A stretch of DNA of 64,000 nt from contig NZ_CP077800.1 in NCBI RefSeq assembly GCF_019112525.1, positions 3,162,001 to 3,226,000 on the forward strand, in the 5' to 3' direction. The position numbers and the translations under genes are program-made. Within the stretch, counting starts at the first letter, position 1; every line of letters starts with the position of its first letter. This document shows positions 2,312-5,296 of the stretch, in pieces. The notes under the pieces are model-generated. The model was not told the origin of the DNA, searched no databases, and saw only the letters and a list, made by a program, of their open reading frames with translations. The DNA is from Modestobacter sp. L9-4 (GTDB lineage: Bacteria > Actinomycetota > Actinomycetes > Mycobacteriales > Geodermatophilaceae).

Positions 2312-2340
2312 ACCGGCCGGCGCACGTGGCGCCGGCCGGT
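2312..2340. terminator. bidirectional intrinsic-type terminator
   Basis: A perfect 12-bp inverted repeat (ACCGGCCGGCGC and its complement) with a 5-nt loop sits between two convergent genes. It overlaps the first base of the minus-strand stop codon at 2340. There is no clear T run, which is common for high-GC actinomycete terminators. Confidence 0.7.
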
Positions 2341-3287
2341 CAGGGCACGGTCGCGGCGAGGTGCTCGTCGGCCGCCAGGTCGCGGAACGCCGACGCCGCT
2401 GCGTCGGAGGAGCCGATCCGCCAGTCCCGCTCCTTGCGCACGTCGAACCACACCAGCGCCCGCACGTCGGGGAAGCTCTCCCGCAGCGCCGGGACGATCC
2501 CCGCGATCCACGCGGCCTTGCTCCCGCCGGTCTCCGACGAGCCCGTCTCGCCGATCAGGATCGGCTTGCCCAGCGGCTGCAGCTGCTCGTACATCGGGCC
2601 GAACACCTCCGCGAAGGTCTCCCACGCGTGGTCCGGGTCGTCGGTGCCCCAGTTGTAGCCGTCGATCCCGGTCCAGTCGACGTAGTCCTCGCCCGGGTAG
2701 TAGGCGAGCGCCCCGGGGGCGTCCGCGCTGTCGACGTTGTTCGGTGCCCACACCCACACGACGTTCCCCCCGTCGTGCGCGGCGAAGACGTCGTGGACGT
2801 GCCGGTAGGCGGCGACGTACAGCTCCGGGTCGTGCCCGCCCCAGCCCTCCTCCTCGTTCATCTCCGCGGCGAGGTCGACGAACACCGGCTGGTCGAGCGC
2901 CCCGGCCTCCCGGGCGCGGGCGGTGAGCATCTCGTCGTAGGTGCCGTCGACGATCGCGGTGAAGTCCGCGTCGAAGGGCTCCCAGTTGACCAGCGACAGC
3001 TGCCCGCGCTCGGCGTCCTCCGCGACGAACCCCGACGTCGCCCACTCGTCGGCCCAGCCCACGTAGGTCAGGTGCAGCTGCGGCACGACGCCGATCGCCT
3101 CGTCGGTCTCCGCGGCCGGGCGGTCGCCGTAGTAGACGCCGAGGTAGGCGCCCTCGGCGGGCAGCAGCGGTGCGTCGGCGGACGGGCCGGCAGCCGGGAC
3201 GTCGTCCGGGGGCGGAGCGCCGCCGCAGCCGGTGACCGCGAGCGCGAGGACGGCGCCCAGCAGGGCGCGGCGGGCGACGGCGGGCAC
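2340..3287 (-). CDS. GH26-like glycoside hydrolase lipoprotein
   Basis: The 315-aa product has a lipoprotein signal peptide ending in the lipobox VTGC (Cys about residue 21), so it should be exported and lipid-anchored. The body resembles glycoside hydrolase family 26 (beta-mannanase-like TIM barrel): AEMNEEEGW carries the expected acid/base Glu, and PILIGETGSSE near residue 240 the nucleophile Glu. GTG 3287 is preceded by GAGGGA. It starts 53 nt downstream of the reverse transcriptase stop on the same strand, so it could be co-transcribed with the retron locus. A glycosidase has not been described as a retron effector as far as I know, so the neighbourhood may be chance. Substrate is unknown. 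Confidence 0.8.
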   Translation of the reverse strand: MPAVARRALLGAVLALAVTGCGGAPPPDDVPAAGPSADAPLLPAEGAYLGVYYGDRPAAETDEAIGVVPQLHLTYVGWADEWATSGFVAEDAERGQLSLVNWEPFDADFTAIVDGTYDEMLTARAREAGALDQPVFVDLAAEMNEEEGWGGHDPELYVAAYRHVHDVFAAHDGGNVVWVWAPNNVDSADAPGALAYYPGEDYVDWTGIDGYNWGTDDPDHAWETFAEVFGPMYEQLQPLGKPILIGETGSSETGGSKAAWIAGIVPALRESFPDVRALVWFDVRKERDWRIGSSDAAASAFRDLAADEHLAATVP

Positions 3288-3340
3288 CAGGGTCCCTCGC
3301 GGGGCGGACGGCGGGTGGGTGGCCACCCCGCCACCCTGCC

Positions 3341-4690
3341 CTACGCGTCGGCGGCGGCCGACCAGTCGATCCGGTCGGCGAGCACGGCCAGGCGCGCACC
3401 GAACGCAGGGTCCAGCGAGTTGGCCCAGGCGACCCGGCCGAGGACGTGGTCGCGGAAGGTGGCCGGGTCCCGGCCGCGCGTCTGGCCCGCCCACCCGTGC
3501 GTCGCACAGTTGTGCAGCAGCGCCCGCAGCGCGTCCCGTTCCCGGCGGGGGAGCGCGGGGTGGGCGTTCACCACCGCGCCGAGCACCGCCTGGCGGCGCC
3601 CGGCGCCCACCGCCGAGGTCTTCGCGGGGTTGACCCGGAAGCCCTCGTCGGCGACGACCTCGGCGACCAGCGCGGCGAACCGGTCGCCGCCGACCGACGT
3701 CCCGCCGCTGAAGGTGAGGTCGTCGACGTAGCGGGTGTAGGTGGCGCCGAAGGTGGCGGCCAGCCCGGCGAGCCGGCGGTCGAGCCGGAAGCAGACCAGG
3801 TTGGCCAGCGCGGGGGACGTCGGTGCGCCCTGCGGCACGTGCGCGACCGCCAGCCGGCGACCCAGCCGGTGGTGCCGGTCGCGGGCGTCGGCGTCGGCGG
3901 GCACCGGCAGCGCACGCCACACCGGCGCCGGGACGACGGTCGTCACCAGCCCGGTGAGCACGTGCGCGACCGGCTCGGGGAGCCCCGCGGGCCCGAGCAG
4001 CAGCCCGTGCACCCGCCCGGCGGACACACTGGGGAAGAACGCCTCCAGGTCCATCCGCAGGACGACGGCCGCCCCGGCGTGCGGCGCCACGGCGGTGCGC
4101 ACCGACCGGCCGGGCACGCACCCGTGCGCTGCCTCGTGCACCGGGACCTGCGCCAGCACGTGCCGCAGCAGCCGCCGCTGCGCCTCCCGCAGCCGGGGCT
4201 TGGGTGCGGCCAGCAGCCGCACGCCGGAGGGCCGGTCGACCGACCGCCACCGGTAGTGGCGCAGCGGCTCGCGCGCGGTGCGCTCCAGCCCCCGGGTGTC
4301 GGCGAACCAGGCGAGCTCGCCGGCGTCGACGTCCAGCAGCCGGGCCACCGCGGCCTGGTCGGGCAGGTCGGCGACCGGGTACCGGTCCCAGGCCAGTGCG
4401 GTCGGCACCGGCGTCCAGCGTTCGACGCGGGGGAGCGGTTGCGTGTCCTGGCCGCGGGCGAAGCCCTGCGTCGTCAGCAGGAAGCGGGACAGCGCGCGGG
4501 GCCGGTCGACCGGCGGCCGCGGGAAGGCGGTCTGCACCTCGCCGACCATCGTGCCGACCCAGGTCCGCGCGCGGGCCATGCCCAGGGCGACGGCGACCCG
4601 GCGGACCATCTCCGGCCGGCGCCAGGGGCCGGCCAGCAGCGCCGTGGCGATCCCGGACGCGGTGGCCGCGGCGCGCCGGTCGGTCGTCAC
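3341..4690 (-). CDS. ret: retron-type reverse transcriptase
   Basis: This 449-aa RNA-directed DNA polymerase would make multicopy single-stranded DNA from the ncRNA just upstream. Visible motifs: AHGCVPGRS (188-196), catalytic Asp214 in MDLEAFFPSV, PQGAPTSP (286-293), and YVDD (321-324) followed by LTFSGG. VLGAVVN (369-375) stands where retron RTs usually show VTGxVVN, and APH (202-204) where they show NAxxH, so both signatures are degenerate. An N-terminal extension of about 140 residues with AWFAD and LRHYRWR resembles the long extensions of myxobacterial (Mx162/Sa163-type) RTs; that comparison is from memory. No maturase X or HNH domain is seen, arguing against a group II intron. GTG 4690 has no clear ribosome site; ATG 4609 is an alternative start. 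Confidence 0.9.
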   Translation of the reverse strand: MTTDRRAAATASGIATALLAGPWRRPEMVRRVAVALGMARARTWVGTMVGEVQTAFPRPPVDRPRALSRFLLTTQGFARGQDTQPLPRVERWTPVPTALAWDRYPVADLPDQAAVARLLDVDAGELAWFADTRGLERTAREPLRHYRWRSVDRPSGVRLLAAPKPRLREAQRRLLRHVLAQVPVHEAAHGCVPGRSVRTAVAPHAGAAVVLRMDLEAFFPSVSAGRVHGLLLGPAGLPEPVAHVLTGLVTTVVPAPVWRALPVPADADARDRHHRLGRRLAVAHVPQGAPTSPALANLVCFRLDRRLAGLAATFGATYTRYVDDLTFSGGTSVGGDRFAALVAEVVADEGFRVNPAKTSAVGAGRRQAVLGAVVNAHPALPRRERDALRALLHNCATHGWAGQTRGRDPATFRDHVLGRVAWANSLDPAFGARLAVLADRIDWSAAADA

Positions 4691-4702
4691 CGGGCGCCCC
4701 GG

Positions 4703-4723
4703 GGTGCGCGGCGGGGAGGACAG
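4703..4723 (-). repeat. a2 arm of 21-nt perfect inverted repeat
   Basis: On the minus strand this arm begins CTGTCCTCCCC and ends GCGCACC. It pairs with a1 over all 21 bases and lies 12 nt before the RT start codon, the usual position of a2 in retrons. Confidence 0.9.
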
Positions 4724-4844
4724 CCAGTCCCTGGGGGACGTGCCGCTGGGTGCGCGGAGCGCGCGGCGTGGCTCATGACGCTGTGCCTGGCTTCTTCACG
4801 GGTCCCCGGGGTTGCCCCGGGGGGACCGGTCACTGCCGGTCGTC

Positions 4845-4865
4845 CTGTCCTCCCCGCCGCGCACC
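4845..4865 (-). repeat. a1 arm of 21-nt perfect inverted repeat
   Basis: On the minus strand this arm begins GGTGCGCGGCGG and ends GGACAG. It is the exact reverse complement of 4703-4723; pairing stops on both sides at mismatches. It would form the 5' end of the retron ncRNA. Confidence 0.9.
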
Positions 4866-4870
4866 GGCAC

Positions 4871-4876
4871 ACCGTA
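4871..4876 (-). promoter_or_regulatory. -10 element of the retron transcript
   Basis: TACGGT reads on the minus strand and ends 5 nt before a1. The local rule of a TAnnnT box plus about 6 nt puts the transcription start at 4864-4865, the first base of a1. No convincing -35 box is visible. Confidence 0.5.
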
Positions 4877-4897: not shown

Positions 4898-5296
4898 CTA
4901 CAGGTACCGGCTCTCGAGCTCGGCGAAGAAGTCCTTGGCCAGGGCGCTGAACTCCGCCTCCCGGACGGCGATCTCCTCGCCCACCCGGTACCGCAGCACA
5001 GAGCGGCTCGCGTCGTACCGGATGTGCCGGTCGGCGATCAGCGTGCTGCCCTGCGCCAGCGACTCGGCGACCAGCCGCACCTCGGCGCAGGCCGCGCCGC
5101 AGGCACCGCCCCGGCCGTGGTCGGGGAACCAGCTGTCCAGCACGACGACCAGGTCGTTGAAGAAGACGGGTTCGAAGTCGTGGACCGCGCCCGGGTCGTT
5201 CCCGCCGGCCAGCCGCCGGAACGCGGCGACCCGGTCGTCGACCGCCGCGCGGCGCTGGTCGATGTGGTGCAGTGCGCTGGTGCTCTGGGACAACAT
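4898..5296 (-). CDS. hypothetical protein upstream of the retron
   Basis: I do not recognise this 132-aa protein. ATG 5296 follows a strong GAGGAG ribosome site, so the gene is real. It is acidic, with no signal peptide or membrane segment. It shows a central [16 protein letters not shown] segment, two cysteines spaced CGAAC near residue 67, and a C-terminal [10 protein letters not shown] helix. It ends 32 nt before the a1 arm on the same strand, so read-through into the retron transcript is possible. Its position makes it a candidate retron partner, but it resembles none of the effector families I know (nuclease, ATPase/HNH, nucleoside transferase, membrane toxin), and it may be unrelated. 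Confidence 0.7.

Follow-up and report, generated by a model that had tools for sequence, protein, structure and literature searches.

A covarying msr-msd-like RNA directly before an untyped retron reverse transcriptase in Modestobacter and its relatives: a probable two-component retron

The window, meaning the whole 64-kb stretch of DNA that was analysed (Modestobacter sp. L9-4, contig NZ_CP077800.1, positions 3,162,001 to 3,226,000), carries on its minus strand a reverse transcriptase (RT) gene and, before it, a structured noncoding element (Table 1). The outermost 21 nt at each end of this element, a1 and a2, are exact complements, and the RT open reading frame starts 12 nt past a2. The gene hyp132 (4898-5296) and a gene for a GH26-like glycosidase (2340-3300) lie on either side. 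An earlier note, made from the sequence alone, had flagged 3341-4865 as a candidate retron. That observation is confirmed, and the comparisons described here support reading the locus as a retron.

No exact inverted repeat in the window that spans 100-260 nt is longer than these 21 bp, and the runner-up has 14. Shuffling the window 60 times with dinucleotides preserved gave repeats of 17 at most, none reaching 21. Chance is therefore rejected as the origin of the 4703-4865 stem, and the repeat scan and shuffles bear out the earlier description of a perfect a1/a2 repeat around a 163-nt RNA shortly before the RT. The element with its flanks (190 nt) has a folding energy of -120.3 kcal/mol (z = -5.44); none of 200 shuffles folded as low.

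Table 1. Features of the locus, in window coordinates
Feature	Position	Strand	Basis
Retron RT, 449 aa, GTG start; residues ~1-105 N-terminal extension, remainder retron RT domain	3341..4690	-	PADLOC, Pfam RVT_1, tree
Retron ncRNA (msr-msd), a1 to a2, 163 nt	4703..4865	-	21-bp terminal repeat; covarying structure, 37 sequences; model R1 143.7 bits, E 1.2e-22 (the window sequence is itself an R1 training row)
a1, terminal stem 5' arm	4845..4865	-	Alignment A2: 13/13 consensus pairs with two-sided changes, 89.0% of cells paired
Likely priming (branch) guanosine, first base 3' of a1; alternative G4845	4844	-	G in at least 90% of A2; role predicted from the rule in PMC6868368
msr hairpin 1, 6 bp	4824..4841	-	96.8% of cells paired, two-sided change in 3/6 pairs
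msr hairpin 2, 8 bp, CCCCGGGG-NNN-CCCCGGGG (window loop CAA)	4804..4822	-	99.0% of cells paired
msd hairpin, conserved apical GCGC-UCC-GCGC	4742..4772	-	Two helices, 97.3% and 98.9% of cells paired; two-sided change in 5/9 pairs
a2, terminal stem 3' arm	4703..4723	-	Exact 21-nt complement of a1
Predicted reverse-transcribed template, outer limit, between a2 and hairpin 2	4724..4803	-	Predicted from anatomy
Conserved -10-like box TACGGT (TANNNT), 5 nt upstream of a1	4871..4876	-	Motif count over 58 loci

Judged by profiles and by phylogeny, the protein is a retron RT. It carries YVDD, PQGAPTSP, and AHGxxPGRS, as the earlier note had said. Two PADLOC models for untyped retron RTs match nearly its full length: RT_other (PDLC02949, 540 bits) and RT_outgroup (PDLC03740, 509 bits). 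The best typed model, RT_XIII, scores 279 bits, half of the RT_other score, and its match (residues 107-440) excludes the N-terminal extension. All 42 family proteins collected in alignment A4 likewise match RT_other, RT_outgroup, and RT_XIII. The NCBIfam retron St85 model gives 147.6 bits, below its cut-off of 235, and the NCBIfam group II model 36.4 bits against a cut-off of 300. Among solved structures, the closest sequence matches are the retron RTs Ec86, Ec67, and Ec78.

A 58-row tree, with retron and group II RTs but no DGR RTs as references, splits 49 retron-type rows from 9 group II rows at 100/100. The RT thus falls among retron RTs, the placement that the earlier note had made a test of its reading. 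The reference labels stood up to a check: all nine group II references pass the group II cut-off (304.9-422.2 bits), and all nine retron references match typed retron RT models best (seven III-A, two I-C). The 38 family rows cluster at 92/96, a moderate value, short of what the programme itself counts as strong support. Two proteins first labelled as family, L014 and L118, fall instead with references L122, L123, and L125, in agreement with the lack of a match to the RNA model R1 (below) in either locus. A group II intron is rejected on the tree, on the group II score, and on an Rfam scan of the window that found no intron RNA.

Departures from the retron consensus (YVDD, VLG, and a NAxxH motif that is not intact) had suggested a divergent lineage. 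At the level of the clade this stands: the RTs match untyped models, and the N of NAxxH is absent in 41 of the 42 A4 members. The site reads AVAPH in the window; its H is present in 42/42 and its N only in L086. This N is also absent in 2 of 16 known retron RTs (PMC6868368). YVDD and VLG, on the other hand, are mostly local. The 11 nearest members of A4 share YVDD, VLG, and a NAxxH site without N, whereas among the 31 others 25 have A in YxDD, and the middle residue of VTG is T in 14, A in nine, and L in four (one retains the N). The T of VTG is accordingly found in 14/42.

The RT domain is under purifying selection. In nine comparisons with the window RT, dN/dS was 0.18-0.38 for this domain and 0.40-0.79 for the N-terminal 105 residues. 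Moreover, the extension is absent in five members (L012, L060, L062, L063, and L073; 334-352 aa, counted from the first start codon after the RNA). Weak constraint and absence together argue against a built-in effector common to all.

Relatives of the RT came from 14 loci on genome contigs and from the 76 genomes, in a set of 196 related ones, that had a match. An inverted repeat of similar span recurs before their RTs, with both arms differing in sequence; at 46% RT identity, for example, the arm GTCGACGACGGCAGGCGA is paired with the arm TCGCCTGCCGTCGTCGAC. From 74 distinct loci, 58 with a clear stem (span 151-183 nt) were kept; the 16 dropped include RT fragments and misplaced RT starts. Alignment A2 holds 37 sequences picked from the 58 loci. 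RNAalifold found 36 pairs in A2, of which 22 show compensatory (two-sided) changes, compared with 12.0 in shuffles; cells with two-sided changes number 101 versus 23.4 shuffled; 94.8% of cells are paired versus 85.6% shuffled; and the covariation score is 0.298 versus 0.131 shuffled and 0.053-0.095 in slid registers, all controls that lean towards the structure because it was derived from A2 itself. The earlier note had asked whether relatives keep the inverted repeat by covariation; they do, to about 40-46% RT identity.

A covariance model built on A2, R1, finds a match upstream of the RT in 67 of the 74 sources (E up to 6e-4), 37 of which are training rows and 30 lie outside training, some of these 30 being close kin of trained rows. 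Two weaker additional matches fall on the opposite strand. At this threshold seven sources gave none: L014, L072 (E 0.019), L074, L075, L076, L079, and L084. In further loci with a strong RT_other match, R1 detects the RNA in nine of ten (E up to 2.3e-8), with E 0.013 for the tenth, L093. Of these nine, two had been counted already (L090 is L070, and L092 is L073). Nothing significant was found in L014, L074, L075, L076, L096, L097, or 17 group II-like loci (L098-L114). Loci from a plasmid collection gave four matches in 11 (two Burkholderia, Dietzia, and Tsukamurella), and none in the other seven.

RNA and RT are closely coupled. The gap from the RNA to the RT, measured to the first in-frame start codon, is 0-30 nt in 62 of 69 loci, and in the others 33, 33, 44, 50, 68, 93, and 158 nt. 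A scan of 97 genomes with R1 under stricter filters found one match each in 37, always beside the RT. An RT match is present in 41 of these genomes; the four without the RNA comprise three RT fragments (G002, G034, G049) and one divergent RT (G115). In the 56 RT-less genomes of this set the RNA was found 0 times. Scanned against Rfam, the window holds no family at the gathering threshold, and the two matches near the element (E 5.1 and 9.5) are taken as chance; a known Rfam RNA is therefore rejected as its identity.

Retron RNAs lie directly upstream of the RT, with ends that pair over about 8-30 nt as a1/a2; in the window these ends pair over 21 bp, and the pairing covaries in relatives. Inside them the consensus structure follows retron order: the msr hairpins, then the msd hairpin, all within a1/a2. 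The earlier note had drawn an 11-bp hairpin inside the repeat; in its place the consensus has the 8-bp hairpin 2 and the 6-bp hairpin 1. Hairpin 2 has the top pairing of the five helices and a two-sided change in just one of its eight pairs, so it is backed by conservation more than by covariation. About 30 nt between hairpin 2 and the msd hairpin are mainly single-stranded in the consensus, and a further unpaired stretch separates the msd hairpin from a2.

The inner end of a retron a1 stem either contains the priming G or ends just 5' of it (PMC6868368). Of the two candidates named earlier, G4844 is favoured, since it lies just inside the terminal stem (RNA position 22) and is highly conserved in A2; G4845 is less likely. 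The priming context is mostly TAGC, with the variants CAGA, CAGC, GAGC, and ACGC (PMC6868368). Here it is CAGG in the window and CGAG in distant members, neither of which is TAGC or a variant quoted in that paper.

Each arm of hairpin 2 (CCCCGGGG, 4804-4822), the best-kept helix of the family, is itself a palindrome. Pairing between two RNAs through hairpin 2 is therefore possible.

Upstream of a1, 44 of 58 loci have the motif TANNNT ending 2-10 nt ahead of the stem (at 4-6 nt in 36; 14 loci lack it), whereas their more distant upstream sequence predicts 0.4 loci; the 58 loci share kinship and so are not independent events. Because this -10-like box stands just before a1 in so many loci, the transcript probably starts near a1. 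In the Burkholderia copies, L115 has TTGACA upstream of TTTAAAGT, and L116 has a similar box.

The neighbourhood was examined for a third component. The two proteins flanking the window RT gave no match in a PADLOC scan. Among the 28 nearest neighbours in 14 relatives, 20 were scanned (all but both neighbours of L054, L055, and L061 and the upstream neighbours of L048 and L058); only UvrA matched, and none matched a retron effector. An adjacent or fused effector, the mark of the typed three-part retrons I-XIII, was thus found neither in the two flanking window proteins nor among these 20. Eight more neighbours, some of them non-adjacent, are a pentapeptide-repeat protein, PIG-L, SelO, VanW, a permease, a HAD hydrolase, a Na/H exchanger, and one unknown. 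By gene calls made with a rough G+C rule, the RT faces a convergent gene as its nearest downstream neighbour in 12 of the 14 relatives' loci. Synteny around the RT holds mainly within genera.

Individual candidates fared no better. Among the loci compared, hyp132 was matched only in Modestobacter-type loci, and in L003, L006, and L022 a gene on the opposite strand stands between it and the RNA. The GH26 gene has no match beside the RT in L001 and L002. An all-against-all comparison of flanking open reading frames, with frames from all six phases included, gave a widest group of 18 out of 75 loci, and the groups follow genera; a universal partner is rejected. In L001 and L002 the ncRNA and the RT are all that separates hyp132 from the next gene, a convergent one whose end meets the RT stop codon. 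At an empty site, L142 (in G018, which has its own retron elsewhere), the distance from hyp132 to the next gene is about 30 nt.

Two side observations concern these neighbours. In the window the RT and the convergent gene, end to end in L001 and L002, are separated by the GH26-like glycosidase gene, which looks like a further insertion. Across loci L001-L142, a pentapeptide-repeat gene follows closely after the RT only in L060 (5004-5591), L062 (5061-5645), and L063 (3400-3981); these three are close relatives, and their RTs have no N-terminal extension.

What lies at the locus, then, is a structured, covarying RNA of retron anatomy, just before an RT and behind a -10-like box, with no conserved third gene found. 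Neither the box nor the missing effector figures in the earlier note. In all likelihood the locus is a solitary retron of two components that belongs to none of the typed systems, because comparison with the empty site delimits RNA and RT only, and no effector gene was found nearby. Several features make this reading less certain: the CAGG priming context; the N of NAxxH, missing nearly throughout A4; VLG in the window; the failure of R1 in 7/74 sources; the lack of the -10 box in 14/58 loci; the lack of an Rfam family; and the very lack of an effector.

By the usual retron scheme, RNA and RT would be made from one transcript starting near a1. The a1/a2 duplex would present G4844 (or G4845), and its 2'-OH would prime the RT, which, starting at 4724, would copy the msd in the direction of hairpin 2 and halt ahead of the msr hairpins. 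Host RNase H would strip the copied RNA, leaving a branched msDNA, predicted at about 50-80 nt, that would remain bound to the RT. More speculatively, and by analogy with other retrons, the RT-msDNA complex might act as a sensor of phage or stress; the output of the sensor might then come from the RT protein or from a partner whose gene lies at another place.

On one rival explanation the RT would belong to a group II intron, a DGR, or another non-retron element, and the repeat would be fortuitous or a terminator. The general RT fold (RVT_1) is common to both, but the tree (with respect to group II RTs), the low group II score, a window Rfam scan that gave no intron RNA, and a repeat longer than in every shuffle make this exceedingly improbable. 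The RNA might instead be a 5' leader that controls RT translation, as an attenuator or autoregulatory element, and serve as no template. Its end does lie near the start codon, at 12 nt in the window and within 30 nt in most relatives. However, helices of the order and kind of an msr-msd, a conserved G inside the terminal stem, an RT that is a retron RT, and an apical msd GCGC-UCC-GCGC conserved though far from the start codon all speak for a template, and the leader is a very improbable alternative.

A graver challenge is an ordinary three-part antiphage retron whose effector lies elsewhere in the genome. Typed retrons use effectors (PMC12548924), and the RT is under purifying selection though it has no local partner. 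Yet none of the 20 scanned neighbours is a retron effector, the downstream gene is usually convergent, and the cassette occurs at different sites without a partner; an effector in trans is a doubtful option, but one with real weight. Taking the two-component retron further, RNA and RT may be the whole of the unit: an effector-free class, selected in Actinomycetota and with members in Burkholderia too, whose msDNA-RT complex would itself do the job (defence or a host function) without guarding a toxin. This extension is put forward tentatively, as a possibility that falls short of an even chance.

Known systems resemble the two-component retron in part. The myxobacterial retrons Mx162, Mx65, and Sa163, compared by description, share with it an extended RT N-terminus and inheritance within related species (PMC6868368). 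The priming context is of CAG type in both (CAGC in Mx162 and Sa163 according to PMC6868368, CAGG here). In contrast, the Mx162 msDNA has 162 nt (PMC6868368), against about 50-80 nt predicted here, and the present hosts are actinobacteria. As for type XIII, RT_XIII is the best typed model, but the scanned neighbours match no retron partner model. Retron-Bth1 and Retron-Sda1, both untyped, likewise combine a retron RT and an ncRNA without the usual effector gene; they are called disrupted by intervening genes (PMC12548924), whereas here the two-part form recurs over many genera. Some retrons without a clear effector-gene association are already noted (PMC8867640, citing Mestre 2020), so a retron without an effector is no novelty in itself.

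Retron RTs of this clade are already known as protein models, RT_other and RT_outgroup. Added here are the cognate ncRNA, the promoter-like box, and a neighbourhood in which no partner was found. An RNA is now assigned to a clade of retron RTs left untyped by the protein models applied here; no description of it was found in Rfam or in the literature searched, the main retron surveys lying outside that search. Most retrons are read as a sensor with a toxin. A retron seemingly of RNA and RT only, present in many genera and under purifying selection, offers a clean way to ask about the role of msDNA on its own, a long-standing question for the myxobacterial retrons. In addition, R1 provides a covariance model for retron RNAs of high-GC actinobacteria, and the window RT is a candidate for DNA production in high-GC actinobacterial hosts.

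The history of the cassette has left some traces. In L006 and L022 the retron and the convergent gene stand in the opposite order to that in L001, L003, and the window. A cassette placed on either side of one gene in different Modestobacter suggests, and fits, local movement of RNA and RT together; the alternative is that the neighbours were rearranged. Repeated GCGACTCTGCAGGGC-like units lie between hyp132 and the next gene at the empty site L142. In G002 an RT remnant of 200 nt (L139, 1907-2191) lies between hyp132 and the next gene, and RT matches are split over frames in other relatives (for example L047, L077, L078, and L082). The retron may have decayed in some relatives, and assembly errors could look alike. 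A phage origin is rejected: among the best 80 of 166 viral-contig relatives the top best-segment identity was 36%, and among 14 phage records it was 31.5%.

Finally, L115 and L116 place the same RNA-RT unit on large Burkholderia replicons. Its presence so far from the actinobacteria points to horizontal transfer.
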